Shown here piece by piece: positions 1-38,271 of a stretch of DNA of 38,655 bases. The notes beneath the pieces are model-generated. The model searched no databases and had not been told where the DNA came from. It saw only the letters and a program-made list of their open reading frames with translations. The translations under genes were made by a program, and so were the position numbers. Numbering within the stretch: position 1 is the first letter of the stretch; every line of letters starts with the position of its first letter. The stretch comes from a virus, in the IMG/VR virus record IMGVR_UViG_3300045258_000159, positions 1 to 38,655 of that record; one strand, written 5' to 3'.

Positions 1-230
1 CGGTGGTTGAGGATCACCATGTTCGGGATCGCGCCGCGCGTCATGACGTTCCCGGAGCCGTCGACCAGCACCGGAAGCCAGTCCGAGCCGCTCCATCCGT
101 ACATGATCGGGCCGGGCGCCGGCTTGCCGTTCGAAGGCGTGACGCCATAGTTGACATCGGCCGACGCGAACGAGGCGAGGGCAAGGCTGACCAGGACGGC
201 AACAGCGAGTCCAGCGCGCGACCACTTCAT
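1..230 (-). CDS. Secreted tail-region protein, N-terminal part (continues across the circular junction)
   Basis: The ATG at 228-230 follows a GGGGGA ribosome site and lies 10 bases after the preceding gene. It opens a frame that runs off base 1. The first 24 residues form a clear Sec signal peptide: a KWSR positive start, a hydrophobic core, and an ASFASA cleavage site before DVNYG. Joined to base 38655 the frame stays open and continues into the reading frame that ends at 38268. The whole protein would be about 205 residues, or 203 if the shared terminal hexamer is counted once. I do not recognise the family. Its place after tail-tip genes and before a large secreted protein suggests a virion-surface or host-envelope role, which is inference. 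Confidence 0.75.
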   Translation of the reverse strand, partial: MKWSRAGLAVAVLVSLALASFASADVNYGVTPSNGKPAPGPIMYGWSGSDWLPVLVDGSGNVMTRGAIPNMVILNH

Positions 231-10136: not shown

Positions 10137-10744
10137 CAGGCGACCGCCTGGGCGATCTCGCGCTCGAAGATCGCGCGAGACTGCCCCTGAGCCTCCTGGC
10201 GCGCGCGCTCCGCAGCGTGCACGCCGGTGATCGTGGCCTTCGAAAGGCCGATGAAGAGGACGCCGCGGTTGTCGCCCTTGCCGCCCACGCCGCGCGCCAC
10301 GAACACCGGGACGCCCGACCGCGCGGTGATCCAGAAGCCGCCCTCGACCTCCGTGGGCGACCCGTAGCGCGGCCGCCCGGTCGACGTCAGGGCCTCACCG
10401 ACCGGCACCGCGAGCACCTTGCCCTTGACCGGGTAGATCGTCCCGCCCTCCTCCTGGATGTGCGCGTAGGAGGCGGAGGGGCCGGTGCCGTAGCCGATGC
10501 GCACGGACCAGCCGCTGGCGGTCAGCTCGGGCTGCGCGTTCGCGATCGAAGCGTTCGCGGACTTGACCAGGTTGCCTGTGCGCCGATCGAGATCGGTCGA
10601 GAGCACCTCGACCATCTTTCGGCCGGCGATCGCCCTGAGGATCTCGACGGTCCGGAACTCGGCCCGGTTGACGGCGCCCACGAGCTTCCCGCTCAACGAC
10701 TTGAGCGCCTCGAGGTTGAGGATCCCGAGCTCGAACCCGGCCAC
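10136..10744 (-). CDS. HK97 gp10-like head-tail joining protein
   Basis: This 202-residue protein starts at a GTG that overlaps the upstream stop by one base (TAGTG), with GGAGG eight bases before. Its N-terminal helices (RTVEILRAIAGRKMVEVLSTDLDRRTGNL) precede a strand-rich part containing YAHIQEEGGTI. That block is characteristic of the HK97 gp10 / minor tail family, whose members join the completed head to the tail. It lies between the connector-like gene and the terminator-like gene, in the expected order. The last 60 residues are basic and helical. Confidence 0.8.
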   Translation of the reverse strand: MAGFELGILNLEALKSLSGKLVGAVNRAEFRTVEILRAIAGRKMVEVLSTDLDRRTGNLVKSANASIANAQPELTASGWSVRIGYGTGPSASYAHIQEEGGTIYPVKGKVLAVPVGEALTSTGRPRYGSPTEVEGGFWITARSGVPVFVARGVGGKGDNRGVLFIGLSKATITGVHAAERARQEAQGQSRAIFEREIAQAVA

Positions 10745-11343
10745 TAGCGCCACCTCCGTCTGCGGAATCCCTTGAGCAGGCTGATGGTCTGCTTCGGCAC
10801 CGCCTCGTTCAGGTACGTCGTCGTCTGGCCGTTCATCGAGATCGAGGCGATCTGTGCCGCCTGGATCTCCGGCGCGCGCCAGAGCGCCCCGCACACCTGA
10901 AGCGCCGCCTCCTTGAGGTCCTCATCGAGCGGCGCCACGCCGTCGGCGTCGCCGTAGCCCGCCGTGTACGTCACCTGCCAGTTCTGGATCCCACGGCAGA
11001 AGATGGCGTTCCGAAATGCGATGCGGCGCCGGCCCGGAGTCAGAATCACGACCGGGTAGGCCGCCGCCGTCAGCTCGTCCCACGCCACCGGGACGGTCGT
11101 TCGGATCTGCTCGATCTTCGTGACCGCCGTGACCGGGTCATGAAGCAGCGTCAGCTCGTTCGATCCCGATCCGTCGAGCACGTCGACGTAGTCGGCGCTC
11201 AGGATCTTGCCGCCACCGATCGTCTTCTCGCAGAAGCGCAGCGCCGCCAGGACGACCCGTTCGAGCCGTTCGAGCTTCGACTCGTCGGCGCCGAGGTATT
11301 CCTGCGCCTCGACCAGCGAGACCAGTTCGGTGGCGGCCGGCAT
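10744..11343 (-). CDS. Head-tail connector (gp6-like)
   Basis: The protein has 199 residues. It begins with ELVSLVEAQEYLGADESKLERLERVVLAALRFCEKTIG, an all-helical opening that matches HK97 gp6/YqbG-type head-tail connectors, which form a ring under the portal. The central part carries strands (NWQVTYTAGYGD) followed by DEDLKEAALQVCGALWR, also a familiar feature of this family. The C-terminus is Arg-rich (GFRRRRWR). It follows capsid genes and precedes the gp10-like gene, the conserved connector position. Start is ATG. Confidence 0.8.
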   Translation of the reverse strand: MPAATELVSLVEAQEYLGADESKLERLERVVLAALRFCEKTIGGGKILSADYVDVLDGSGSNELTLLHDPVTAVTKIEQIRTTVPVAWDELTAAAYPVVILTPGRRRIAFRNAIFCRGIQNWQVTYTAGYGDADGVAPLDEDLKEAALQVCGALWRAPEIQAAQIASISMNGQTTTYLNEAVPKQTISLLKGFRRRRWR

Positions 11344-11346
11344 CGG

Positions 11347-11574
11347 CTACTTCTGCTTCGTCTCGGCGGGCTTGGTGACCGATCCGCCCTTCGGCTTCTC
11401 GGCCTTGTCGCCCTTCGGCTTCTCGGCGTCGGCGTCCTCGAACAGCTCGCCCGCGTGACGCGCGATCCAGAGCGCCTCGAGCTCGTCGACCTCGCGCGTC
11501 TCGCCGATCGACCATGGCTTGCCGTGGCCGCGGAACTCCTTGGGCTCGGGGCCCTTGTAGCGCAGGAGCGCCAT
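11347..11574 (-). CDS. Small capsid-region protein with Lys-rich tail
   Basis: The gene encodes 75 residues and starts two bases after the upstream stop. The N-terminal half (ALLRYKGPEPKEFRGHGKPW, then GETREVDELEALWIARHAGEL) resembles small proteins found between capsid and connector genes in many siphophages. The C-terminal half carries two EKPKG repeats and is Lys/Glu/Pro-rich and likely disordered. No enzymatic feature is visible. It may be a minor head protein. Function is unknown. Confidence 0.7.
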   Translation of the reverse strand: MALLRYKGPEPKEFRGHGKPWSIGETREVDELEALWIARHAGELFEDADAEKPKGDKAEKPKGGSVTKPAETKQK

Positions 11575-11576
11575 GG

Positions 11577-12170
11577 CTAGTTCTTCCTGCCGACGATCGT
11601 CGCCGTCACGCCGCAATAGCGCCGGCCGATCGTCCCGCCAACCTCGGCGTTCAGGACCACGAGGCGGTACCAGCGGTGCGCATAGACCGAGGTCGTTGGA
11701 GCGAGCGCCACGACCGTGCCCCAGACGTTCGCGCCCACGGTCGTCGAGGCCGAGAGCGACAGATAGGCGACCGACGCCAGCGTCCCGAACGTGTTCGAGA
11801 TCGCGAAGTTCCCCTGCGGGATATCCTTTTGGTCGGCGTACTGGACCTGGTACCCGATCGAGTCGGAGGCGGTGTTCGCCTGGCCGTAGACCGTGAAGAT
11901 CACGAGGGGGTAGGCCGAATACCCCTGCGTGAACTGGTAGTTGGAGAGGTCCAGCCACTCCGTGGTGTCGGCGAAGTCGACGGCCGCGCCGGGGCCGGGC
12001 AGCGAGATCACGAGCGAGTCGGTCACGCCGAGCCCGCGCGAGGAGATGCCGCGCTGCCAGCGCAGAGGAACGGTCGTGAGACCGATCTCCGCCTGGGCGA
12101 ACTGCGGAATCACCATCGCGGCAACGATGGCGACAAGAGCGAGAGAGCACAGCCTGCGGAGATTCTTCAC
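11577..12170 (-). CDS. Capsid-adjacent protein with a Sec signal peptide
   Basis: The gene encodes 197 residues from a GTG preceded by AAGGAGG. Residues 1-27 form a standard Sec signal peptide: KNLRR, a hydrophobic core, and PQFAQA cleavage before EIGL. The mature part is beta-rich, with many Ser/Thr/Val/Tyr residues (TDSLVISLPGPGAAVDFAD, SASTTVGANVWGTVVALAP), and has only one cysteine, near the C-terminus. It lies directly after the major capsid gene, where decoration proteins are usual, but cytoplasmic capsid decoration would not need export. It might be a host-envelope or surface-modifying protein made late in infection. I do not recognise the family. Confidence 0.8.
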   Translation of the reverse strand: MKNLRRLCSLALVAIVAAMVIPQFAQAEIGLTTVPLRWQRGISSRGLGVTDSLVISLPGPGAAVDFADTTEWLDLSNYQFTQGYSAYPLVIFTVYGQANTASDSIGYQVQYADQKDIPQGNFAISNTFGTLASVAYLSLSASTTVGANVWGTVVALAPTTSVYAHRWYRLVVLNAEVGGTIGRRYCGVTATIVGRKN

Positions 12171-12203
12171 GTCGGATCCTCCTTGGAACGAGTCAGGGAG
12201 TCC

Positions 12204-12223
12204 GGGGCGGCCGAAGCCGCCCC
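12204..12223 (-). terminator. Strong UUCG hairpin after the major capsid gene
   Basis: On the transcribed minus strand, a perfect 8-bp GC stem GGGGCGGC/GCCGCCCC encloses a TTCG tetraloop closed by C-G, the extra-stable cUUCGg type. It lies between the capsid stop (12245) and the start of the signal-peptide gene (12170). No U-run follows, so complete termination is unlikely. It may stabilise the 3' end of abundant capsid mRNA or reduce downstream transcription. Confidence 0.6.
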
Positions 12224-12244: not shown

Positions 12245-13792
12245 CTAGACGCCCTGGTCGTAGACCTGCCCGACGTGCGGCTCGGTGCCGTCCGTCTTGT
12301 ACGGCGAGCCGAACGCCTCGCGCATCGTGCCGAGGATCTCGATCTGGTCCTGCTTGGCGCGCGTCTGGTCGAGCACCTGCAGCGTGACCTCGCGCACCTT
12401 GCCGATCTTCCACGCCGGCAGATAGACCAGCTCGGTCGACGTGCGATCGAGCGCGGTCGTGCCGGACGAGTTGACGCCCGACGAGTCGAGGTTCGCCCGC
12501 TGCTTGCCCGAGACCGCGTACTTCCAGCCGAACGGGGTCGGCGGGACCTTGCCGCTCACGTTCGTCGCGGCCTGCGACGCCGCGTAGGCCGTCAGCCACG
12601 CCTGCACCGACAGGAGCTGCGAGTTCCCGATGGCGCCCGAGAGGCACAGCACCTTGCCGGGGCTCGTGCCGTACTTGTCCATGCGGCCCAGCACCTTGAG
12701 CAGGAAGTCGCGGATCGAGGCATCGGAGTCGAGCCGCGCGCCGCCGGCCGCGACACGCGCCGGGTTGACCGAGCGCGTCGCGACGTAGCGCAGGCCCGGG
12801 AACGCCTTGGCCGGGTGGTCGGTCACGGCGTTGATGTCCGTGTCCATGTGGGTCGCGGTCGTGTCGCCGTTGAGGATCATCTCCTCCTCGGCCTCGCCGA
12901 GCGTCTCGACGATCGCGTGACGAGCCCACGGCAGCTCCTCGATCGCGGCGTCCTCGACGAGGAACTTCGACATCTTGATCGCGACGCCCACAGCCTTGGC
13001 GGCGAGGTCGTACTTCGACGTGATGTCGCGCGTGTTGAGGCCGTCGCCGATCGCGGGCGTATCCGAGTCGCCGGTGTTCTCGGTCATCAGGAACGCCTGC
13101 AGGTCGGTCAGCCACGTCGGGAAGCGCAGCGAGCCGTGGCGCATCGGCACTTCCTGGAAGTAGGCCGCCAGGACGCGCTCGATCCGGATCATCTCGATCA
13201 GCTGCTCGGACATGTCCTGGGCGAGCCATTCGAGACCCGCGCCGGCGTCGCCCGTGTCGAACGCCTCCTTGAGGATCGGCTCGACCGCCTTGCAGGCGTC
13301 GAGGTAGGGCCCGCGGAAGATCTTCAGCTGCTCGATCCGGCCGAGGTCCTTGATCCCCATGAGCATGGCGGTCAGGCGCACGTCGTCGCCCGCAGTCTTC
13401 CACTGCTCGAAGACGTCGTCCTCGTCGGTCTCGAAGGTCGTGCCCCACGGGTGGACCGTCGACTTGACGACCGACTTCGCCTGGTGGATGGCCTGCATCC
13501 CGTACTGCAGGAAGGCTTCCTTCGACACCGGGATGCGGCGCTTCTTGCCGTCCAGCGTCGGCGTGCGGTTCATGTCGCCCACGAGCACCTTGAGATCGCG
13601 CAGGGCCTTCACCTGCTCGTCGCGATCACCGTCGGCCTTGCCGAGACGCTCGATGACCTCGGCGTGCTGGGTCGCGAACAGCGCGACCTTGTCCGAGAGC
13701 TCCTTGCGCTTGGACTCGCTCGCGGCGAGCGCGGCCTCCATCGAGCTCTTGAGCGTGGCCTTGCTGGTGGTGTCGATCAGGATCTGGCTCAC
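12245..13792 (-). CDS. Major capsid protein (HK97 fold)
   Basis: The chosen GTG start is preceded by GGAGG and gives 515 residues. The first 85 residues are helical and charged (LAASESKRKELSDKVALFA), like the scaffolding delta-domain of HK97-type capsid proteins that the protease removes. The rest has the expected HK97-like mix: KYDLAAKAVGVAIKMSKFLVED and EEEMILNGD near 265-315, and a C-terminal strand region ending GTMREAFGSPYKTDGTEPHVG. It follows a prohead protease gene. It would form the icosahedral shell. The N-terminal cleavage is inferred from family knowledge. Confidence 0.88.
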   Translation of the reverse strand: MSQILIDTTSKATLKSSMEAALAASESKRKELSDKVALFATQHAEVIERLGKADGDRDEQVKALRDLKVLVGDMNRTPTLDGKKRRIPVSKEAFLQYGMQAIHQAKSVVKSTVHPWGTTFETDEDDVFEQWKTAGDDVRLTAMLMGIKDLGRIEQLKIFRGPYLDACKAVEPILKEAFDTGDAGAGLEWLAQDMSEQLIEMIRIERVLAAYFQEVPMRHGSLRFPTWLTDLQAFLMTENTGDSDTPAIGDGLNTRDITSKYDLAAKAVGVAIKMSKFLVEDAAIEELPWARHAIVETLGEAEEEMILNGDTTATHMDTDINAVTDHPAKAFPGLRYVATRSVNPARVAAGGARLDSDASIRDFLLKVLGRMDKYGTSPGKVLCLSGAIGNSQLLSVQAWLTAYAASQAATNVSGKVPPTPFGWKYAVSGKQRANLDSSGVNSSGTTALDRTSTELVYLPAWKIGKVREVTLQVLDQTRAKQDQIEILGTMREAFGSPYKTDGTEPHVGQVYDQGV

Positions 13793-13811
13793 TGGTTTCC
13801 TCCGTGCGATG

Positions 13812-13826
13812 CCGGGTAGCACCCGG
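13812..13826 (-). other. Hairpin upstream of the major capsid gene
   Basis: A perfect 6-bp stem CCGGGT/ACCCGG with a 3-base loop lies between the protease stop and the capsid ribosome site. There is no U-run. A second, stronger hairpin follows the capsid gene, so the two could define a stable capsid transcript by processing. That role is inference. Confidence 0.4.
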
Positions 13827-14798: not shown

Positions 14799-16979
14799 TC
14801 AGGCCGCGGACGGCTCCGCGAACAGCGCGTCGAAGTCGCCCGACAGGACGATCTCGGTCGACTTGCTGCGCGACTCGCGCGCGCGCTTCGCCGCCTGGTC
14901 GACAACGGGCAGGATCGTGCAGCGGCAGTTGATGCGGTTGCCGGCCGAGCCTTCGCCCGGGTAGGGGATCGCCTCGTCGCCCTTCTTGCCGGGCACGACG
15001 AACTCCTCATCGAGTCCGATCTGGACGCCGTCCATCGCGGCGTGATCGAACTCGTCTCCGGCGTCGATCGAGCGCACGAACGAGTCGCGCGAGGAGATCC
15101 ATTCCTCGCCGGTCACCACCTCGCTCTGGCGCCAGCCGAAGTCGGTCGCGGCGTTGTAGGCGGTCCCGGTCTCGGTCCATGCGATCCTCAGGGCCTCGGA
15201 GCGCCTCAGGTCGAACAGGGCGACGAGGTCGCTGGCGATCTCCGTCGTCGTCAGGCCCTCGTCATTGGCGCGGGCGAAGAGGTCCGACACCTGCTGACGA
15301 GCGCTTTCGCCAATCAGCTTCGATTCGCGCGCCGCGGTGCGCTCCATCCACGAGGTGACGCCGGGGACGCTGGCGAGGAAGTCCGGGTCGTCGACCACCT
15401 CGGCCATGGCGCTCTGGCCGCGCTCATGGACAATGCGGGCGTACGCCTGCAGGAGCACGGCCTCGAACTCCTCGTCGGGCAGCTCGACGTCGAACGAGTC
15501 CTTGGTGCGCGTCGTGCCCGCCTTCTCGAGCGAGGCCACGAGGCGCTTCTCCTGGCGCGTGGCGAGGTCGACGAACAGGCGCTCGATCTCGGGCACGAAC
15601 GACTCCATGTCACGCTCACGCTCCATGCGCTTCTCGTGCCGCACGGGGTCGTCGATCCACGCCTTGGGCTGGGCGCGGCCGGCGCGCGCGGGCGGCAGCG
15701 GCTGGGAGACCGTGCCGGTCGGGGCGAGGATCTGCGGCGCGTAGAGCGTGTCGCCGCCCGTGGCGCGCGGCTTGCCGATCTCGATCCGGGCCTCGTTCTG
15801 CGTCAGGAGGCCGCCCGAGACCAGCGCGACGAGCGACTGCGCCCGCTTGAGCCTCAGGTCCTGGATGGCCTCGACCTTCTCGTAGTCGAACCACGCGACC
15901 AGGTTCTCGTCGCCCCAGAGGCGCCACAAGACGTTCTCGGTGATGTCCTGGGCGAGCATCTCGAGCTCGGGGATGATGGTGTTGAACCAGTACATCTCCT
16001 TCTGCTCGCTGGCGTTCGCATAGGACGCCTCCCTCAGGTCGCCGACGTACATCGGCGGGACGCCCGCGGCCGAGGCGATCTGCTCTTTCGAGGTTTCGAG
16101 CAGCTCGATGAACTCGCCCTCGGCGGGGGAGATGCCGGAGGGGACCCACTTCGCGCCGTCCCAGAGCACGCCCACGCGCTTGCGGTTACCGCGCCCGGAG
16201 GTGATCTCCTGGATCTCCTTCTTGAGGTCCGGGCGCTCGAGCTGGTCGACGTGATCGTCGAAGGAAATCCAGCCTGGCGGGACGCCGCCATGGGCGAGGA
16301 ATTCGGTGTTGTACTTGGCGATCTGGTCTTCGAGCCACGCGAAGATCTGGGTTGAGCGGAGCCACGTGAGCCCGCGCCAGTCGTCGGCCGGGTTCACCAT
16401 ACGGGTGTGGAACACCTGCTCAGGCATAAGGATGCGTCGCTCGGGCTGGCCGTCGGGGCTGTACTCATAGCGCAGGGGCTTCCTGCGGGCGCCCTTGATG
16501 ATCGTCGTCTTGTTCGGCTGCATGAGCCACATCTCGCGCGGGCGCGACGTGCCGAGGTACTCGAGCTCGACCATGCCGTCGCCGGTGAGCTGGAAGCAGG
16601 CATCGAGCCGTGCGCGGAACGAGGCCGGGCCCTCGGTGTCGTTGACGCTGCGGAAGAGGCGCGCCGGGGAGCCCTCGATGGTTGGATCCATCGGCGTCCG
16701 CTCGCCGGACTTCGACATGCGGCCGATCAGGAGCGGCACGCGGGACTTGTCGGTCGCCTTCCGCATAACGCAGCGGTAGACGGTCGGGATCGTGGCCACG
16801 CACTTCATGAGGTCGGGCCCGATGTAGGGCCGCGCCGCCTCGGAGCTCGAGCTCGTGATTGCGCCGCGGTAGTCGAACCACGCGAGGAGCCCTTCGCCGA
16901 GGCCAATCAGCTTCTCGCCCAGGCCCATGACGGCCGACGCTCCGAGCGCCTCCCTGCGGCTTCGCCTCTGCCGGCTCAC
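14799..16979 (-). CDS. Portal protein fused to a MuF-like C-terminal domain
   Basis: The gene encodes 726 residues. The GTG start overlaps the terminase stop by four bases and has GGAGG four bases upstream. An internal ATG gives a start 17 residues later. Residues about 18-430 match HK97-type portals (IPTVYRCVMRKATDKSRVPL, EFLAHGGVPPGW, AAGVPPMYVGDL). Residues about 550-693 match the MuF head-morphogenesis domain: LRIAWTETGTAYNAA, SIDAGDEFDHAAMDG and GNRINCRCTI. Portal and MuF proteins are often separate genes, so this is a fusion. The portal forms the DNA channel and the MuF part is a minor internal head component. Confidence 0.9.
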   Translation of the reverse strand: MSRQRRSRREALGASAVMGLGEKLIGLGEGLLAWFDYRGAITSSSSEAARPYIGPDLMKCVATIPTVYRCVMRKATDKSRVPLLIGRMSKSGERTPMDPTIEGSPARLFRSVNDTEGPASFRARLDACFQLTGDGMVELEYLGTSRPREMWLMQPNKTTIIKGARRKPLRYEYSPDGQPERRILMPEQVFHTRMVNPADDWRGLTWLRSTQIFAWLEDQIAKYNTEFLAHGGVPPGWISFDDHVDQLERPDLKKEIQEITSGRGNRKRVGVLWDGAKWVPSGISPAEGEFIELLETSKEQIASAAGVPPMYVGDLREASYANASEQKEMYWFNTIIPELEMLAQDITENVLWRLWGDENLVAWFDYEKVEAIQDLRLKRAQSLVALVSGGLLTQNEARIEIGKPRATGGDTLYAPQILAPTGTVSQPLPPARAGRAQPKAWIDDPVRHEKRMERERDMESFVPEIERLFVDLATRQEKRLVASLEKAGTTRTKDSFDVELPDEEFEAVLLQAYARIVHERGQSAMAEVVDDPDFLASVPGVTSWMERTAARESKLIGESARQQVSDLFARANDEGLTTTEIASDLVALFDLRRSEALRIAWTETGTAYNAATDFGWRQSEVVTGEEWISSRDSFVRSIDAGDEFDHAAMDGVQIGLDEEFVVPGKKGDEAIPYPGEGSAGNRINCRCTILPVVDQAAKRARESRSKSTEIVLSGDFDALFAEPSAA

Positions 16980-18394
16980 GCGGCCTCCAATCGAGATCCC
17001 GAGTACTTCAGCGCCATGTTCGCGGCGTGACACATGAGCAGGAACGCATCGAGCGAGTCCCACTTCATTCCAGCGCGATCCTTCAACGACTTCGAGTCCT
17101 TCTTCTTCGCCAGCGACAGCTTGTGCTTCCTCATCTCGTCACGCAGCGGCGCCCACGGGCCGTTCGCTGGAAGCAGTAGCGAGGTGAGTCCCGAGGGTCG
17201 GTCGGCGTGCTCCTCGACGAACTTCATCGCCTCGACGCACAGGTCGTAGCGTACGGTCGGGCTGAAGACGATCTTCTCCTCAGGACGTACGTGCACACGC
17301 AGGTTCTGCCCGGCGGCGTTCCCCACACCCGTGTAGTCGATCGCCTTGCGGCCGCGGTAGTCACGCACGTTCGTCTCGACGCGCCGCTGCAGGTGCGGCC
17401 ACGTCGTGTTCTCGTGGCGCTCGCCGTGCACGCCGATGATCAGGTCGCGGGCCGTCACATCGCAGACATAGCCCACGCCCGCCGTCGACTCGACGCCCAT
17501 GTCCCAGCCCTGGCCGTACTTGTGCCCCGACACCGGCCGGGTCGAGACCGGCAGGCCGGCGTCGAAGATCTTGAGCAGGTGCTCCTTGCGGAACGTGTGG
17601 ACATTCGAGCCCACGAACTCCGCGAGCACCTCCTGCCGGTAGAGGATGTCCGGCAGGCGCGCTTTCATGCGCTCGAAGTACTCGGGATGCAGCCACGGGT
17701 TCTCGGTCGCTGGGCCCGAGTAGGCGTAGAGCGTTTCGTCCCCGCCGAGCCTCGCTTCGTCGAACTCGTTGTAGAGATCCTCGTACCATTCCTCCTGCGG
17801 CGAGCTGAACCCGATCACCGGCCCGTTCGACTTGCGCACGCGGGTCGTCAGGAAGTGCCAGGCGAACTCCGAACCGAACGACATCTCGTCGAGCGTGACG
17901 AAGTCCCACTCGGGTCCGCGAAGATTCTGGCAGTCGTCCTTGGTCGTGCGTGCCGTGATGTAGCTGCCGCCCTTGAGGTACACGGTCGGATACGGCGAGT
18001 ACACGATGTCGTCGAGCATAGATAGAGCTACCGGATTGGAAGTCCAGTACGCGATAAGCCGTTTGATCGCGAGGTTCGCCTGCTCTTGGGAGCGGGAAGC
18101 CGCGAGGCACGCGACACCCTTCTTTGACTCCGCGACCTCCGAATGAAGCTCGGCGATGACGTCCGTCTTTCCCCAGCCCGTGCCCGCATTCACGATCCCC
18201 AGCTTGACCTTGCCCTCGCGCACGTCGAGTCGCCTGAGAACCTCGCGCTGGGCCGGATGCGGCACCCAGCCGCGGAGCGCAATGGCGGCCGCGACCGGAT
18301 CGCTCCGGATGCGGCCAAGGCCGGTGCGCAGGCGCTCCTGGTCCTTGGGTCCCAGCGACTCGCGCAGCAGGGGCGGTAGAGCGCGCACGGTCAT
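16976..18394 (-). CDS. Terminase large subunit
   Basis: The 472-residue protein carries an ATPase domain with Walker A GTGWGKTD at 71-78 and Walker B ending DFVTLDE at 164-170, followed by a GFSS coupling segment near 195-198. The C-terminal nuclease has acidic residues in an RNase-H-like order: WDMG (D298), AIDYTG (D353) and KWDSLDAF (D446/D449). The ATG overlaps the small-subunit-like stop by four bases. It cuts and packages phage DNA into proheads through the portal encoded next. Length and motifs are complete. Confidence 0.95.
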   Translation of the reverse strand: MTVRALPPLLRESLGPKDQERLRTGLGRIRSDPVAAAIALRGWVPHPAQREVLRRLDVREGKVKLGIVNAGTGWGKTDVIAELHSEVAESKKGVACLAASRSQEQANLAIKRLIAYWTSNPVALSMLDDIVYSPYPTVYLKGGSYITARTTKDDCQNLRGPEWDFVTLDEMSFGSEFAWHFLTTRVRKSNGPVIGFSSPQEEWYEDLYNEFDEARLGGDETLYAYSGPATENPWLHPEYFERMKARLPDILYRQEVLAEFVGSNVHTFRKEHLLKIFDAGLPVSTRPVSGHKYGQGWDMGVESTAGVGYVCDVTARDLIIGVHGERHENTTWPHLQRRVETNVRDYRGRKAIDYTGVGNAAGQNLRVHVRPEEKIVFSPTVRYDLCVEAMKFVEEHADRPSGLTSLLLPANGPWAPLRDEMRKHKLSLAKKKDSKSLKDRAGMKWDSLDAFLLMCHAANMALKYSGSRLEAA

Positions 18395-19171: not shown

Positions 19172-19726
19172 CTAGCGGGTTGGAGTCGAACTGGAATCGG
19201 GGTGTGGTGCGGAATCCATCGTCGTCTTCACCTGGTCGAGCAACGCCTGCACCTTCGCCTTTGACCCCGGGTCGAGGGTGTAGTCGTGGTGCGTTTCCTT
19301 GTACGAACCCGGATCCGCGACGATGTCGATCCCGCTGTTCAGCACTCGAGTACCGCCGTCGACCGCGATGAAGGTGAAGGTGGCCATCGTCTTCGCGCTC
19401 GATCTGGTTCCGAGAGACAGGATATTGCCGATCGTCGGCTTCAGCGGCTGCTCGAAGGTGGCGCTAAATTCGTCCTTGCGGGTCGGGTTCCAGCCGTTCT
19501 CGGACAGCCTGGCGACCATGGCGCCCTGAATCCGCTGCACATTGTTGCTGGCGATCACGACGCTCGCCGGCCGCTTCGCCTCCTCGGCCGCCGCGACCTT
19601 CGCGAGCTGCTTTGCGGTTGCCACCGAGTCCTTTGCGGCGCGCTCCGCAGCCTTCTCGGCGTCGGTCTTCGCCAGGGCGGGGGAGTTCGTCAGGATTAGG
19701 GCGGCGATGAGGGATAGGATTCGCAC
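19172..19726 (-). CDS. Predicted secreted protein upstream of terminase genes
   Basis: The gene encodes 184 residues from a GTG preceded by GAGGGG, almost abutting the upstream stop. Residues 1-19 form a Sec signal peptide (RILSLIAALILTNSPALA). A charged Ala/Lys helix follows at 20-50, then a beta-rich domain (ASVVIASNNVQRIQGAMVARL, TFTFIAVDGGTRVLNSG) with no cysteines. It does not match a head or packaging protein I recognise. It may act in the host envelope, for example in superinfection control, or be a host-derived cargo gene. Its position next to terminase genes is unexplained. Confidence 0.7.
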   Translation of the reverse strand: MRILSLIAALILTNSPALAKTDAEKAAERAAKDSVATAKQLAKVAAAEEAKRPASVVIASNNVQRIQGAMVARLSENGWNPTRKDEFSATFEQPLKPTIGNILSLGTRSSAKTMATFTFIAVDGGTRVLNSGIDIVADPGSYKETHHDYTLDPGSKAKVQALLDQVKTTMDSAPHPDSSSTPTR

Positions 19727-20263: not shown

Positions 20264-20323
20264 CCGAGTGACCTCCCATTGCACCGTAGGTCATGACCTC
20301 CCATTGCACCGTAGGTCACTCGG
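20264..20323. repeat. Two abutting 25-bp palindromic repeats (candidate iterons or operator)
   Basis: Positions 20269-20293 and 20294-20318 are identical 25-bp units placed head to tail with no gap. Each unit begins TGACCT and ends AGGTCA, so each is an inverted repeat around a CCCATTGCACCGT-type centre. The pair is framed by CCGAGTGACCT and AGGTCACTCGG, an 11-bp perfect inverted repeat across the full 60 bases. The element overlaps the end of the winged-helix gene at 20316. Such arrangements are typical of sites bound by dimeric DNA-binding proteins, for example replication iterons or operators. Confidence 0.65.
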
Positions 20324-25416: not shown

Positions 25417-26121
25417 ATGGCGCGCGCCCTGATCCTCGATGAGATCGTGCTCAAGTACGGATCGCACGCACGGCCGCAGTCGGGGATGTGCGTCATGGAA
25501 GCCGCCGCCTACGTCGCCGGCGAGGAATTCTCCGATCACCCCCAGTGCGTCTGCCCGGTGATCGCCCGGTTCCTGCGCTCGTGGAATGACGCGCTGCCGG
25601 ACGACGAGACTCGGACGCGCCTGCTCAGGCCGCTGATCCCGGTGATCCTGAACACGCGCTCGACGGAGGCGGTCGAGATGCGGCGCTCGTGGATGGCCTT
25701 CGACTGGATGGTGCGCGAGTTCACGCCGACGTGGCTCGACCTCGTGGAAAGCTGTAAGCCGCACGCGGCGAACCTGCGCGCGCTGCCCGAGATCGACTCG
25801 ACCGGCGCGCTCGACCTGGCGCTCCCGGCGCTGCGCGAAGCGCAGCGCGCGGGGGCCGCAGCGCGGGCCGCAGCGTGGGCCGCAGCGGGGGACGCAGCGT
25901 GGGACGCAGCGGGGGACGCAGCGGGGGCCGCAGCGGGGGACGCAGCGCGGGACGCAGCGCGGGACGCAGCGCGGGACGCAGCGCGGGACGCAGCGCGGGA
26001 CGCAGCGCGGGACGCAGCGCGGGACGCAGCGCGGGACGCCCTCGCTCCGCCGACCGCTGCGCTGCAGCAGTCGGCGATCGCCCTGATCCACCGCATGGCG
26101 GCCGTGAAGGAGGTCGCGTGA
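25417..26121 (+). CDS. Phage protein with a variable Ala-rich repeat region
   Basis: The protein has 234 residues. Residues 1-140 (LKYGSHARPQSGMCVMEAAAYVAGE, CPVIARFLRSWNDALPD, MAFDWMVREFTPTWLDL) match a family common in actinobacteriophages and other phages. Residues about 145-208 are built from four-residue repeats such as AARD, AAGD and AAWD, encoded by 16 tandem 12-bp units. These would form a long charged Ala-rich helix. A short helix follows. Function is unknown. Copy number may vary because every unit keeps the frame. Confidence 0.8.
   Translation: MARALILDEIVLKYGSHARPQSGMCVMEAAAYVAGEEFSDHPQCVCPVIARFLRSWNDALPDDETRTRLLRPLIPVILNTRSTEAVEMRRSWMAFDWMVREFTPTWLDLVESCKPHAANLRALPEIDSTGALDLALPALREAQRAGAAARAAAWAAAGDAAWDAAGDAAGAAAGDAARDAARDAARDAARDAARDAARDAARDAARDALAPPTAALQQSAIALIHRMAAVKEVA
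25849..26040 (+). repeat. Sixteen tandem 12-bp repeats inside a gene
   Basis: The 192-base array is made of 12-bp units. Positions 25945-26028 hold seven exact copies of GCGCGGGACGCA, followed by an eighth that differs at its last base. The eight earlier units (25849-25944) vary at two or three positions. Each encodes four residues. The exact copies at the 3' end suggest recent expansion by slippage or unequal recombination. Confidence 0.9.
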
Positions 26122-29270: not shown

Positions 29271-29701
29271 AACGCAAACAGGTTCGGCTCTACGACGGTG
29301 GCGCCAGGCATCGCGAGCTCGTCGCGCAGTTGTACGCGCGCGGATGGTCCAGCCGCGGATGGATGGCGACCCTCCTGAGCGCCGTCCAGAACGACGAGGA
29401 GTGGAGCTGCGCGCTCGAGGACGATTCCCTGGAGGAGATCAAAGAGGCGAGGGTCGTTCCCGACGGTTGGATGTTTTACTCCGAGGTGGAGAGCGGCAAG
29501 ACCGTCCTCGCTTTCGTCGAGGTCGAGGTCACGAGCCCGGTGTCCGAGGACAAGATGGCCGCCTATGCGAACCTGTTCTGGGAGCTGGACGTCCTTGAGA
29601 TCGCGCTCGACGTCGTGGTCGTCGACTATGCGGGCGAGGCGTCGCACCTCCTGGGCCAGGCCAACATGGTCGAGCGCATGTTCGGCGGGAGCAGGGGATA
29701 G
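29267..29701 (+). CDS. Possible nuclease-like protein (PD...EVEV...K pattern)
   Basis: The frame of 144 residues starts at a GTG overlapping the upstream stop. An N-terminal helical HTH-like part (ELVAQLYARGWSSRGWMATL) precedes VVPDGWMFYSEV, TVLAFVEVEVTS and SEDKMAAYANLFWEL. The order P-D, E-x-E, K...Y is like replication-relaxation and restriction-nuclease-like proteins. The usual Lys of E-x-K is replaced, so activity is doubtful. Function is inferred weakly. It lies between two excisionase-like HTH genes. Confidence 0.5.
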   Translation: MKRKQVRLYDGGARHRELVAQLYARGWSSRGWMATLLSAVQNDEEWSCALEDDSLEEIKEARVVPDGWMFYSEVESGKTVLAFVEVEVTSPVSEDKMAAYANLFWELDVLEIALDVVVVDYAGEASHLLGQANMVERMFGGSRG

Positions 29702-29709
29702 GCGCCCAG

Positions 29710-29892
29710 GTGAAGCCCGCCACCGCGCTGCTGAGTGCCTCGGAAATCGCGGCAATCCTCAAGATCCCCGCGAAAAAGGTCTACGACCTCCTCCGCGAGG
29801 AGGGCCTGCCTTGCTACCGGATCGGCCGGCGGGTACGTTACGACCCGGGAGAGTTCGAGCGCTGGCTCTCGACCCGAAAGGGACCAGCATGA
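29710..29892 (+). CDS. Excisionase-like HTH protein beside integrase
   Basis: This 60-residue protein starts at a GTG and overlaps the integrase start by ATGA. LLSASEIAAILKIPAKKVYD, then EGLPCYRIGRRVRYDPGEFERWL is an Excise/HTH_17 winged-helix pattern. Overlap with the integrase gene makes a recombination directionality factor (Xis) likely. It could bind near the candidate attP about 1 kb downstream. A function in phage excision is inferred from context. Confidence 0.75.
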   Translation: MKPATALLSASEIAAILKIPAKKVYDLLREEGLPCYRIGRRVRYDPGEFERWLSTRKGPA

Positions 29893-30860
29893 GACGACAG
29901 CGTGGCCTCTACCGCCGCAAGGGACGCGACGGCTGGCACGCCTGGGTTCGCGTGGACGGCGAGCCCCGGCAGCGCAAGATGGGCACGACGCTCATCGAGG
30001 CGCAGGCGAACCTCAAGAAGGTGCGCGCGCAGGGGGGCGCGCCCGCGACAACGACGGTTGCCCAGGCGATCGCGGTGTGGTGCGAGACGCAGCTCTCCGT
30101 CTCGCACGGCTCCGCTCGAGGCCGGGCGATCGTTCTGGCGCGAGCGGAGAAGTACCTCGCCCGGTTCCTCGGCTTCGACCGCGTGGCCTCTCTCGGCTAC
30201 GCGCGCCTGAGCGAGTACCGGCTCTGGCTCGACACGCAGGGGCTGGCGGCGCAGACGGTGCATCACCTGATGGGAGATCTGAGGGGCCTGCTGCTGTTCC
30301 TCGTGCGCACCGGGCGACTGGATCGGACGCCGTTCGATCGAGCGCTCATGCCGCGGGTTCCGCAGCGTCTCGCACGGCCGCTCCTGCCCGAAGAGGCGCG
30401 CGCGGTGTGCGCGATCCCGGGCGAGCTCGGTTTCCAGTGCCGGCTGGGCATCGGGAGCGGGTTCCGGTTCTCCGACCTGTGCGGGCTCGATCGGACGCAC
30501 TTCGACGGCGCCGCGCTCGTCCTGGTGGCGCAGAAGACCGGGCGAGTGGTGCGGGTGCCGCTCGATCAGGAGCTCGCGGACGAGATCCGCGGCCGGATCG
30601 GGCGACTGTTCGATCGCTCACCGAACGCCCCGGGATCGTTCAACCGGAGCGTGCGGGCCGCCTCAGGAGTGGCCGGATTTCACGCACACCGGATGCGCCA
30701 CACGTTCGCGAACCGGATGCGCGCGAAGGGCGTGGACATCTACCGGATTCGCGACTTGCTCGGGCACCGGACCGTGACCACGACCGAGATCTACCTGTCG
30801 TCGGTGGCGGCATACGACCCGGAAACGGTACAGGCGGTGACCGAGGTTGTGACCGGATAG
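29889..30860 (+). CDS. int: Tyrosine-family integrase
   Basis: The gene encodes 323 residues. An Arm-type beta-rich N-terminus (GLYRRKGRDGWHAWVRVDGE) and a SAM-like core-binding domain precede the catalytic domain. Candidate catalytic residues are Arg193 (GSGFRFSDL), Lys216, His267 and Arg270 (HRMRH), His293 (LGHR) and Tyr302 (TEIYL), in the usual order. It would join phage and host DNA at an att core; a tRNA-like core begins 48 bases after its stop. A 10-bp palindrome GCGCATGCGC overlaps the last base of the gene. Confidence 0.95.
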   Translation: MRRQRGLYRRKGRDGWHAWVRVDGEPRQRKMGTTLIEAQANLKKVRAQGGAPATTTVAQAIAVWCETQLSVSHGSARGRAIVLARAEKYLARFLGFDRVASLGYARLSEYRLWLDTQGLAAQTVHHLMGDLRGLLLFLVRTGRLDRTPFDRALMPRVPQRLARPLLPEEARAVCAIPGELGFQCRLGIGSGFRFSDLCGLDRTHFDGAALVLVAQKTGRVVRVPLDQELADEIRGRIGRLFDRSPNAPGSFNRSVRAASGVAGFHAHRMRHTFANRMRAKGVDIYRIRDLLGHRTVTTTEIYLSSVAAYDPETVQAVTEVVTG

Positions 30861-33443: not shown

Positions 33444-33896
33444 TTACTGAGGCCACGGACTCAGATCGAGCGCCGTGGTATCGGGTTGCGTGCCACATGG
33501 GCCCGAGACATTCGTCACCGCGGCCCCTCTCAGGTTCAGCCCGTCGTGCACCATCCAGAACGAGCCGGAGAGCACGGCACAGTTGCTCTCGTGTTTCGCG
33601 TCGGGCAGCAGCTCCCCGCGCAGCGTGTCGCCATCGGTCCCGGCGAACGCGCACGTGTAGCGGATCAGGCTCGTGACCGGCGGCAGCCCGCAGATCACGA
33701 ACCGATGCTGCGCGATCCAGACGTTGACCTTGCCCGTTTGCCACACCGCCGCGCCGGGGACGTCGCCGCCGGCGGCCGCGTAATAGCGCACCTCGGGCTC
33801 GTCCTGGACGACGATTCCGACCGAGTCCACTCCGGTCGGAGATACGCAGCCCCCGGCCGCCAGCGCGAGCAGAACCAGAGCGCTCGCAATCCTCAC
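33444..33896 (-). CDS. Predicted lipoprotein near lysis genes
   Basis: The 150-residue frame starts at a GTG overlapping the upstream stop (GTGA). Residues 1-17 form a lipoprotein signal (RIASALVLLALAAGGC) ending in a lipobox-like AGGC before Cys17. The mature part is beta-rich with several cysteines. It lies in the lysis region, so an outer-membrane role such as an o-spanin-like or exclusion function is possible. It is much longer than Rz1-type spanins, so this is uncertain. Confidence 0.65.
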   Translation of the reverse strand: MRIASALVLLALAAGGCVSPTGVDSVGIVVQDEPEVRYYAAAGGDVPGAAVWQTGKVNVWIAQHRFVICGLPPVTSLIRYTCAFAGTDGDTLRGELLPDAKHESNCAVLSGSFWMVHDGLNLRGAAVTNVSGPCGTQPDTTALDLSPWPQ

Positions 33897-34150
33897 GTGA
33901 CGAGCGGCACGCGCCACTCGGGCGCGCGACAGAGACATCGCTCGTACTCGGTGAACGTGGCCGAGCGGACGTAGAGCCTCTGCTCGAGCCCGTTATTGCG
34001 GTCCTCGACGAGCAGCAGGTCGGGACAGGCCAGCACGCGCCTCAGGAGCAGGATCAGCCCATCCGCGGAGCCCTCGGCGAGCTCGACGAGCTGCTCGTAC
34101 TTCGAGACCGGCAGCTTGATCACGCGCACGCCCATCTTCGGCAGTGGCAT
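33893..34150 (-). CDS. Small protein of unknown function
   Basis: The gene gives 85 residues from an ATG sharing one base with the previous stop (TGATG). It has a basic start (PLPKMGVRVIKLPVSKYEQL), helices with GLILLLRRVLACPDLLLVED, and a final part with several Arg and Cys residues. It has one moderate hydrophobic segment. It lies between lysis-region genes. Function is unknown. Confidence 0.6.
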   Translation of the reverse strand: MPLPKMGVRVIKLPVSKYEQLVELAEGSADGLILLLRRVLACPDLLLVEDRNNGLEQRLYVRSATFTEYERCLCRAPEWRVPLVT

Positions 34151-34422: not shown

Positions 34423-35271
34423 TTATTGGGGCGGGCTGGGCGTCCACCCGAGCTGCAGGCGCGCCACGATCGAGTTGCGGTACGGGTTCTTGAGGTCGAC
34501 GACGGGGATCAGGCCGATGTACCAGGCGGTCTTGCCGCTCGGGTTCCGCGCCACGCGCCACGAGATCGGCAGCGCGAAGTCGACCGAGGACCTGTGCCCG
34601 ATGATCCGGTCGACATGGTCGCCGAAATACTGCACCGCGCGCACGCGGGCGAAGAGTTGAATCCCGCCGCCCTGTCCATCCGTCGACAGCGCCCACGAGA
34701 CGCCCTCGCCGACCGAGCCGACCTTGGAGCCCACGCCCCAGTCCGAGCCGATCACGAGCGCGATTGCGGGGCCCGTGGAGTAGGCGAACTGGCCGCCGAT
34801 CTCGCCGTCGTAGTCGAGCGGCTTGCCCGGGTAGTTCACGAGGTAGGCCGCGTCGGAGCCAAGCGCCCGCACGCCCCCCGAGATCCCGAAGTTCGCCCGG
34901 TGCATGTCGAGCGGGGGATAGTTCATCTGCGCCGAGGCCGGCATCGGGATCAGCAGGACGGCCAGCGCGAGGCCGAGCATCCACATCGCCACGGTCTTGT
35001 TCGCCACCGAGTTGTCCGCAGCGTCGACTTTCGTCGAGACGTCCGCGGCCTTCGCAGGCTGGAACGGACGCTGCCAGCCGAGCTTCGCCAGCACGACCGG
35101 AGCCGCGATGGTGAGCATGGCCGCAGGGCTGATGATCCCGGCGCCGGTGTCGACGCTGACGGGCCACCCCTGCCACTTCGCCACGCCGAGCCAGATCAGG
35201 GAGAGCGCGACGGCCCAGCCCTCGATGGTGTTGAAGATGTCCTTGAGCTTCTGGAACAGGCTCTGATCCAC
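34423..35271 (-). CDS. Membrane protein with internal signal-like segment and beta-rich C-terminus
   Basis: The GTG start at 35271 has GGGAGGAG upstream and gives 282 residues. Hydrophobic helices occur at about 19-32 and 46-64, then a polar linker with VSTKVDAADNSV. A third segment at about 93-115 (AMWMLGLALAVLLIPMPASA) looks like a Sec signal peptide followed by a Gly/aromatic, beta-rich part (HRANFGISGGVRALG, GEIGGQFAYSTGPAIALVIG) that resembles an outer-membrane or surface domain. It may be a fusion of a holin-like part and an exported domain. A second internal start near the signal-like segment is possible. Confidence 0.65.
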   Translation of the reverse strand: MDQSLFQKLKDIFNTIEGWAVALSLIWLGVAKWQGWPVSVDTGAGIISPAAMLTIAAPVVLAKLGWQRPFQPAKAADVSTKVDAADNSVANKTVAMWMLGLALAVLLIPMPASAQMNYPPLDMHRANFGISGGVRALGSDAAYLVNYPGKPLDYDGEIGGQFAYSTGPAIALVIGSDWGVGSKVGSVGEGVSWALSTDGQGGGIQLFARVRAVQYFGDHVDRIIGHRSSVDFALPISWRVARNPSGKTAWYIGLIPVVDLKNPYRNSIVARLQLGWTPSPPQ

Positions 35272-35695: not shown

Positions 35696-36211
35696 CTACG
35701 CCGTGAAGTCCGACAGCAGCCCGGCCATCCGGTTCATCCATCCGAACGCCCACTTCGCCTGCGTCGCATCGTTCGTCACCAGCCGGCCGTAGAGCCGCAG
35801 CCGCTCGCCGAACATCGAGAGCCAGAGCTTCGCGGGCGCGGCTGCTTCGATCGCGGTCAGGGTCCGGGGCCCGAACACTCCGTCCACGTCGAGCCCGCCG
35901 AGTGCGCGCTGGATCATCCGCACCGCCTGGCTGATCCCATGCTGGACCCCGGAATCGACCACGAGCGCCCGCAGGCGGTCATCTGAGATCTTGGAGAACC
36001 CCGGCACCTCGACGTAGAGGTAGCGGTAGATTTGGAGCGCCTCGGTCGCCGACAGGTGCTCCACGTCGGCTGCCGAGACGTCCTTCTTCCTCCACGCCGC
36101 GAGCGTCCCCTGCGTCACCCCGAACTTCGTCGGCCCGCCATGATCGTCCGGATCGTTGACGTACCCGCCCTCGCGCGAGATCAGGTCGGCGAGCATGTCG
36201 GCCTCGGTCAC
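35696..36211 (-). CDS. Endolysin: GH108-type lysozyme with PG-binding domain
   Basis: The gene encodes 171 residues from a GTG overlapping the previous stop. It contains LISREGGYVNDPDDHGGPTK, the GH108 signature with candidate catalytic Glu14, and later VVDSGVQHGISQAVRMIQRAL and GVFGPRTLTAIE, the usual C-terminal PG_binding_3 part. It cuts peptidoglycan during lysis. No signal peptide is seen, so release would depend on a holin. It follows the large secreted protein gene and precedes membrane-protein genes. Confidence 0.9.
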   Translation of the reverse strand: MTEADMLADLISREGGYVNDPDDHGGPTKFGVTQGTLAAWRKKDVSAADVEHLSATEALQIYRYLYVEVPGFSKISDDRLRALVVDSGVQHGISQAVRMIQRALGGLDVDGVFGPRTLTAIEAAAPAKLWLSMFGERLRLYGRLVTNDATQAKWAFGWMNRMAGLLSDFTA

Positions 36212-38271
36212 CGGATGTCCCGCTCGGTGATCTGGTCGGCGTATACCCACTGGATCGGCCCGGAGTTGAAGTAGCGCACCGTCGAAGTGTTCGCCTGCAT
36301 CGCGCACCACTTCGCCGCTTCCATGACGCCGTTGATCATCCGCGTCATTTCCCACGCCGGCCGCGGGCCCGAGTACGGCCCGTTCGCCGTCACGCCGATC
36401 CCCGCGCGCCAGTTCGGGATGTGCGTGACCCAGATCACGCCCTTGGCGATCCCGCGGTGGGCCAGCGCACTCGTGTTCGCCGCTTCCGACGCCGTCGAGA
36501 TGTCGATCTGCCGCTCGAAGCCCATCGCAGCGCCGAGCAGCGAGTTCATGCCGTAGCGCATGGGGATGTAGACGTCGGCCGAGACCGTGTCGAGCGTGCC
36601 GCCCCAGAGGTACTTGGACGGCACGTAGAGCAAGTCGCGGTAGCTCACGCTGACGGGGGAGATCAGCGAGGCCCCGATCGTGTTGATGTTCGGCAGGAAG
36701 TAGTCGACGCCCCGGCCGATGCCGCCGATCATCACGCTGTTCGGCTCCTGCGCGTTCGCGTTCGGCGCCTCATACTGGGTCCGCACGACGCGGTAGCCGT
36801 GCCCGTAACTCGCCCCCGCGAGCGCGATGGCGTAGGAGATCGAGTCGAAGTTCGAGAGGAAAAACCCGCCCGGCCCCGCGAGCTGCGACGAGTAGTCGTC
36901 GCCCGGAGGCATCACGTGACGCGAGACCAGCAAGGGGTCGCCGACGGCGGTGATCAGCTTTCGGGTCGCCCCCGTGAGCAGCGAGTACGTCGAGTGATCC
37001 CGCTGCGTCGACGTAGTACCGAAGGCCCATGCCAGGCGGTCCTTGCCAAAGATGTCGTTGTAGACGCCGCCCGAAGCCGACGTGAGCGATGAGTCCGAGA
37101 CCGACCCACCGGCTGACGTCCCGGCATGGTTGTGGACCGTGAAGCGCCCCATCTTGTAGCGCCGCGCGGCTGCGAACTCGTTGGCGAAGCGCGTCGAGCC
37201 GTTCTCGGCCGTCGCCATCGAGTCGGTCTCTTCGCCGAGCGTGTAGGGGATCTTCCACACACCGAGCGAGTCGAACCCGGCGAAGGCGTCGGCCACCTGC
37301 GGGTAGCTGCACTGGACGCAGGCCACGCCCGGCACCACGAAGCGCTTGGAGCCGTCGTCGATGTCGAGCGCGACATGCTGGGCCGGGAACTGGAAGATCG
37401 ACGGCGCGAGGCGCGCGGCCATGCCCATCGCGACCACCGAGAGCTGCGACGACTTGAAGTTCGCCGAGCCGACGTTCGACGCCTTGCTCTCCCAGTTGAT
37501 CACGCCATAGCCGTTGGCGTTCGCGGTCCCCGCGCGCGTCGAGACGATGGGCGGGTTGTAGAACCACGCGCAGACGGTGTCGGATGCGGTGGCAGACGTG
37601 CCGCCCACGCCGTCGGGATCGGCCTTCGTGTAGTTGTAGAACGCGAGCCACAGAACCGGCGTGATGTAGTTGCCCGCGAGACTGCCGCTCGAAGTCGGTA
37701 GGCGCTGCGAGAAGTAGGTATTGACCGGGAATGCGAATCCCGCCGGGCTCGTGGCGAACGGGCTGGACCCGGTGAGCGACACATTGACGTGGCCCGAGTT
37801 GACGCCGAGCGAGTCGTCGCCGGCGCCGGCCGCGAGATCCGACCCCTCGGAGATGTAGAGCACCGGCACGCGCGGCCGGTTCGCGGCCTGCGAAAGCTGG
37901 ACGGCAAATCGCCTACCCGGGCCGGTTCCTCCGCTGGCGTTCGTGCACATGACGACGATCAGATCGTAATCGAAGCGCGGGGACGCGCCCGTGGGCGCGA
38001 TGCTGTCCTTGAGCTCCGAGAGCGTATAGCTGCACGTCAGGAAATGCGCGCCCTTGCCGAAGGCGTTGGTCGCATCCTCCCAGCAACTCTGGTTCGCGAT
38101 CGTGATCTTGTTCCCGGACTTGATCGAGCGCGACAGGAGGTCGAAGAAGCCGGTGTAGTTGTCCTTGCTGTCCGTGTAGAGCGAGTCGACGAGGACGAGC
38201 ACGCCGCCCGCATGAGCGGACGAGCTGAACAGCGAGAGCGCGAGGGCGAAACCGAGCGCGAGCCGCTTCAC
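36208..38271 (-). CDS. Large secreted protein with polysaccharide-deacetylase-like motifs
   Basis: The GTG start overlaps the previous stop and gives 687 residues. Residues 1-22 form a Sec signal peptide (KRLALGFALALSLFSSSAHA). The mature protein is Gly/Ser/Ala-rich. Three or four spaced motifs resemble CE4 (NodB) polysaccharide deacetylases: ALDIDDG at 301-307 with Asp303/305/306, TVHNHAG at 378-384 with His380/His382, MPPGDD at 454-459 and VIWVTH at 612-617. The motif distances are larger than usual, so the match is tentative. It could modify or bind surface polysaccharide as an exported adhesion or processing protein. Confidence 0.7.
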   Translation of the reverse strand: MKRLALGFALALSLFSSSAHAGGVLVLVDSLYTDSKDNYTGFFDLLSRSIKSGNKITIANQSCWEDATNAFGKGAHFLTCSYTLSELKDSIAPTGASPRFDYDLIVVMCTNASGGTGPGRRFAVQLSQAANRPRVPVLYISEGSDLAAGAGDDSLGVNSGHVNVSLTGSSPFATSPAGFAFPVNTYFSQRLPTSSGSLAGNYITPVLWLAFYNYTKADPDGVGGTSATASDTVCAWFYNPPIVSTRAGTANANGYGVINWESKASNVGSANFKSSQLSVVAMGMAARLAPSIFQFPAQHVALDIDDGSKRFVVPGVACVQCSYPQVADAFAGFDSLGVWKIPYTLGEETDSMATAENGSTRFANEFAAARRYKMGRFTVHNHAGTSAGGSVSDSSLTSASGGVYNDIFGKDRLAWAFGTTSTQRDHSTYSLLTGATRKLITAVGDPLLVSRHVMPPGDDYSSQLAGPGGFFLSNFDSISYAIALAGASYGHGYRVVRTQYEAPNANAQEPNSVMIGGIGRGVDYFLPNINTIGASLISPVSVSYRDLLYVPSKYLWGGTLDTVSADVYIPMRYGMNSLLGAAMGFERQIDISTASEAANTSALAHRGIAKGVIWVTHIPNWRAGIGVTANGPYSGPRPAWEMTRMINGVMEAAKWCAMQANTSTVRYFNSGPIQWVYADQITERDIR

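Follow-up and report, generated by a model that had tools for sequence, protein, structure and literature searches.

A gene for a probably exported protein directly after the major capsid gene of a phage, a place where export is unexpected

Tailed-phage head operons are usually read as sets of cytoplasmic assembly parts. Among described systems, XepA, a late jelly-roll protein of PBSX, is exported and is not present in mature particles (PMC6834076), so that there is a precedent for a phage beta-sandwich protein with a function outside the cytoplasm. A survey found phage-encoded hypervariable proteins to be devoid of the signal peptides of their bacterial surface counterparts, which was taken as support for a phage origin (PMC6199706). 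A search of the literature, for the most part of papers accessible without subscription, yielded no report of signal peptides on capsid-module proteins.

The window analyzed here spans the full 38,655 bases of an IMG/VR virus record (68% G+C). The minus strand carries in order genes for terminase, a portal-MuF fusion, protease, a capsid protein of HK97 fold, the protein under study (P0001), a 75-aa product, head-tail adaptor, connector and tail proteins. The phage is probably temperate, because an integrase is encoded at 29565-30860. Features at the P0001 locus are:

12245..13822, minus strand: major capsid protein of HK97 fold (matches PF05065 with E 2.5e-5, which is at the gathering cutoff, and phrog_10, major head protein, with 5e-6)
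12205..12222, minus strand: GC-rich UUCG hairpin between the capsid gene and P0001, without a T run (fold z -1.4)
12178..12184, minus strand: Shine-Dalgarno AAGGAGG of P0001, 7 nt ahead of the GTG (sequence)
11577..12170, minus strand: P0001, 197-aa precursor, GTG start, stop TAG (ORF, codon usage, Shine-Dalgarno)
12090..12170, minus strand: predicted Sec type I signal peptide, residues 1-27, cleavage between AQA and E (heuristic scan and null)
11577..12089, minus strand: predicted mature part, 170 aa, orphan, probably beta-rich (no matches; AlphaFold mostly strands, pLDDT 39)
11347..11574, minus strand: 75-aa gene between P0001 and the head-tail adaptor (ORF; phrog_3129 at E 0.096 only)
10744..11343, minus strand: head-tail adaptor (phrog_442, E 5e-19)

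The original prediction had set a gene at 11577-12170 directly after the major capsid gene; its coordinates are exact, and the upstream neighbour is identified by both PF05065 and phrog_10. The two genes are separated by 74 bp. The hairpin residing in this interval was considered as a meaningful element ahead of P0001 and set aside, its z of -1.4 being not clearly beyond chance. Small genes similar to the 75-aa one follow the capsid gene in GBK2, AL and Y3_1, as judged by eye. P0001 is a genuine gene. GC content at codon positions 1, 2 and 3 is 0.59, 0.49 and 0.91, and the codon-usage score reaches +0.51 bits per codon in frame, compared with -1.24 and -1.01 for the two remaining sense frames and no more than +0.05 for antisense; in-frame codon usage is phage-like and resembles that of the neighbour genes. 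An internal start at Met19 was discarded, the sequence read by eye having no Shine-Dalgarno there.

Elsewhere in the window, one 754-aa protein is made up of portal (PF04860) and MuF (PF04233) domains (14799-17063, minus strand), a 12-bp repeat, GCGCGGGACGCA, is found in 16 copies at 25849-26039, and a 25-bp unit whose ends are inverted (TGACCT...AGGTCA) occurs in two perfect tandem copies at 20269-20318 and may provide operator sites. No close relatives of the phage were found via its capsid, portal, tail and terminase proteins. Two contigs were matched via the recombination gene, neither of them carrying a gene like P0001, and the host was looked for and not found.

In some of the phages reached through the portal protein, phrog_5707 directly follows the capsid gene. 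P0001 is placed likewise, directly after the HK97 capsid gene and ahead of the head-tail adaptor, with the 75-aa gene intervening. Eighty IMG/VR loci with phrog_5707 were collected, and a structure model built from 57 members has a jelly-roll fold (pLDDT 91.7). The model matches XepA (Z 9.8, rmsd 5.2, 118 aligned), YomS (Z 9.6, rmsd 2.7, 104 aligned), the jelly-roll cement protein of BPP-1 (Z 9.0, rmsd 2.8, 111 aligned) and chains of phages Milano, 7-7-1 and Carin1 (Z 9.1, 8.7 and 7.8, respectively), rows with Z within 1 of each other being taken as tied. The premise that this slot usually holds capsid decoration or head proteins is sound, because the phrog_5707 fold resembles cement and capsid-associated chains, those of BPP-1, Carin1 and 7-7-1 among them. 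P0001 itself has no detectable relation to the phrog_5707 profile (shuffled sequences score the same in hhalign and hmmsearch), and no similarity to the phrog_22694 profile beyond shuffles; a kinship to the two families, which the order of strands had seemed to indicate by eye, was discarded on these scores.

The first 27 residues of P0001, MKNLRRLCSLALVAIVAAMVIPQFAQA, followed by E, are arranged like a signal peptidase I substrate. All features of such substrates (basic n-region, hydrophobic core, AXA site within about 30 residues) are found in the sequence: the n-region has a charge of +3 (KNLRR), the core spans 10 residues with a mean hydropathy of 3.27, and the predicted site lies between AQA and E. 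N-termini were evaluated by a home-made rule, calling for a basic n-region, an uncharged core, and small residues at -3 and -1. At a core hydropathy threshold of 3.2, 35 of 200,000 random 45-mers of the phage's own amino-acid composition pass (0.017%), and none of the 4,742 internal windows of ten virion proteins of the same phage does so, even at a looser threshold. By sequence, P0001 begins with a Sec type I signal peptide of canonical form that exceeds chance by far, in agreement with the strong signal peptide originally proposed. Since P0001 is without relatives, no conservation backs the signal peptide. Given this textbook export signal, P0001 probably works in the host envelope and not in the virus head.

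The mature part is an orphan. Homologs were found neither in viral contigs, phages (even at E 10), PHROGs, Pfam and IMG/VR, nor in about 50 other virus records (a search run without a positive control), and phmmer returned no match up to E 10 among all PDB chains, XepA and YomS included. The AlphaFold2 model obtained from the single sequence consists mostly of strands, at a pLDDT of 39 that is too poor for fold comparison. A beta-rich mature domain, as originally suggested, is plausible from this model, which lends it weak support.

P0001 is not the only product of this phage with a signal peptide. Two further genes in structural positions, overlooked in the original prediction, sit between a BppU_N-like gene and the gene for a GH108 endolysin (35696-36355):

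3..230, minus strand: protein A, first 76 of 205 residues, signal peptide (frame open across the contig ends)
38268..38654, minus strand: protein A, remainder (joined frame, stop overlapping the next start codon)
36208..38271, minus strand: protein B, 687 aa, orphan, signal-peptide N-terminus, start overlapping the stop of A (sequence)

The genome is probably circular, because one minus-strand frame, that of protein A, leaves the left end at position 3 and is continued in frame from 38654 to the stop at 38268; the record has no end repeats. The core of protein B is weaker (hydropathy about 2.3), and falls below the threshold of one signal-peptide scan. Protein B comes after the tail genes, and its middle part is, by eye only, faintly like polysaccharide deacetylases. 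P0001 and protein A have no mutual similarity. A 184-aa protein of no family, with signal peptide MRILSLIAALILTNSPALA, is encoded upstream of the terminase genes (19172-19726, minus strand). By eye, 34423-35007 resembles a beta-barrel precursor and 33444-33938 a lipoprotein. The frame at 34423-35271 (minus strand) joins a holin-like N-terminus, a signal-peptide-like segment and a beta-barrel-like part, and may represent two genes or a fusion. Because of the signal peptides of A and B, along with the beta-barrel-like and lipoprotein-like genes recognized by eye, export of late products seems a theme in this phage, and the host is probably diderm.

Signal-like N-termini were searched for in 95 phage loci, among 931 ORF ends with a Shine-Dalgarno. 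Nine were obtained, some being artefacts of other frames. One belongs to a phrog_22694 protein (E 3e-54) encoded in the head module of IMG/VR contig L069 (1666-2274), in which about 32 added residues form a predicted signal peptide; relatives from Bradyrhizobium, Microcystis and Streptomyces phages and from two further IMG/VR contigs lack it. Judged by sequence, therefore, the architecture of a signal peptide on a head-module protein recurs in another phage, a point that had escaped the original prediction, as had the hydrophobic N-termini of some HK97 capsid proteins themselves. Four of the nine are such capsid proteins, and a closer look upstream of phrog_5707 raised the count to six loci with five distinct sequences, all of them HK97 capsid genes with an N-terminal extension:

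L051, 2481-3926
L052, 2494-3942
L055, 2543-3910
L081 and L084, 2493-3929
L096, 2558-3913

The extensions are hydrophobic, signal-peptide-like or transmembrane-like, and lie ahead of the coiled delta region. Four of the extended proteins were scanned against Pfam, and their capsid identity is established by PF05065 (E 1e-59 to 1e-72). Codon comparison of the extensions provides weak, mixed evidence for translation and constraint. Because some HK97 capsid proteins have a hydrophobic N-terminus, such a segment by itself does not exclude a head role.

The most economical reading of P0001, a genuine gene with a canonical signal peptide in the capsid-cement slot, is export to the envelope. P0001 would be made from the head operon late in infection, be taken by the Sec pathway of its host, a diderm, into the periplasm or onto the outer surface, and be freed of 27 residues by signal peptidase I; the resulting 170-residue domain, probably a beta-sandwich, would act in the envelope. 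It may weaken or alter the surface before lysis, or mask receptors against re-adsorption of progeny, possibly together with A and B, as further probably exported late proteins, in a manner comparable to XepA of PBSX. We regard a late surface or lysis role in the envelope as having slightly less than an even chance of being correct. The earlier proposal that the protein is sent to the envelope, or acts outside the cell, thus holds as the most economical reading, in line with the signal peptide and the XepA precedent. Against export stand the placement in the head operon, which favours a head role, and the hydrophobic N-termini of some HK97 capsid proteins, which imply that a segment of this kind need not mean periplasmic release.

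P0001 might alternatively be an accessory protein of capsid or tail that is exported, attains its fold outside, and comes to coat the virions when the compartments are mixed by lysis. It resides in the cement slot beside the capsid gene, frequent occupants of the slot are jelly-roll cement-like proteins, and A and B are located where tail-fibre genes lie. Decoration from outside is nevertheless unlikely: the binding of cement proteins to heads normally takes place within the cell, lambda, T7 and T4 being examples of phages assembled in the cytoplasm (PMC6260602), and P0001 has no sequence link to any decoration family. Proheads of T4 begin on the inner membrane (PMC9958956), and this, like the five distinct IMG/VR capsid proteins with hydrophobic extensions, would fit a P0001 held at the inner membrane by its hydrophobic N-terminus while proheads assemble, this N-terminus being kept or removed late. 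Such tethering is improbable, however, as P0001 differs from a signal anchor in its ideal signal peptidase I site and its short core, and as a basic N-terminus on the cytoplasmic side would have the remainder of the protein translocated, away from the prohead.

A superinfection exclusion or lysogenic-conversion protein, placed by chance in the late operon, would be in keeping with a temperate phage carrying an integrase, and exported exclusion proteins do exist, the soluble periplasmic Glo among them (PMC3952083). The chances of this are slim: ltp is a lysogeny-module gene, transcribed in the prophage (PMC3952083), whereas P0001 is found among head genes, far from the integrase and not in a lysogeny module. 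That P0001 is an ordinary head protein, its hydrophobic N-terminus being incidental or translation starting downstream, is very unlikely, since phrog_5707 members do have mildly hydrophobic N-termini but lack the basic-core-AXA layout seen in P0001, which random sequences reach at a rate of 1.7e-4, and a strong Shine-Dalgarno precedes the GTG.

Should export to the envelope prove right for a gene in the capsid-cement slot, annotation that relies on gene position would be misleading here, and late operons would also encode effectors of the envelope, produced at the same time as virions. A more general and rather doubtful proposal is that head-module proteins of some tailed phages (P0001, the phrog_22694 variant and the HK97 capsid proteins whose N-termini are hydrophobic) may be directed to the cytoplasmic membrane or through it, either for an unrecognised membrane-coupled step of head assembly or for decoration after lysis. 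As phrog_22694 proteins exist in two forms, one bearing a signal peptide and one lacking it, related proteins offer a way of testing the question.

Compared with known systems, phrog_5707 proteins (e.g. gp34 of Azospirillum phage Cd) and the BPP-1 cement protein (3j4u) share with P0001 the slot and a similar domain size, but have no signal peptide and no detectable sequence homology to it. The L069 phrog_22694 variant likewise belongs to the head module and combines a signal peptide with a small mature domain; it comes after the head-tail adaptor, and is homologous to signal-less phage proteins, unlike P0001. Ltp and Glo are, as P0001 may be, temperate-phage proteins acting outside the cytoplasmic membrane, but belong to another module; Ltp is lipid-anchored, and no similarity of P0001 to either was found. 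Gp40 of Xanthomonas phage PBR31 has an N-terminal signal peptide and is similar to tail-associated hydrolases (PMC10975493), but is an esterase whose gene adjoins presumed spanin genes, and is rather to be compared with protein B. XepA and YomS, from the B. subtilis prophages PBSX and SPbeta (PDB 6i56 and 6i5o), have no sequence similarity to P0001, and XepA belongs to a lytic cassette, whereas P0001 follows the capsid gene. Both are, as P0001 would be, late phage proteins, and their beta-sandwiches resemble capsid cement, the link in fold being drawn here only through the phrog_5707 model.
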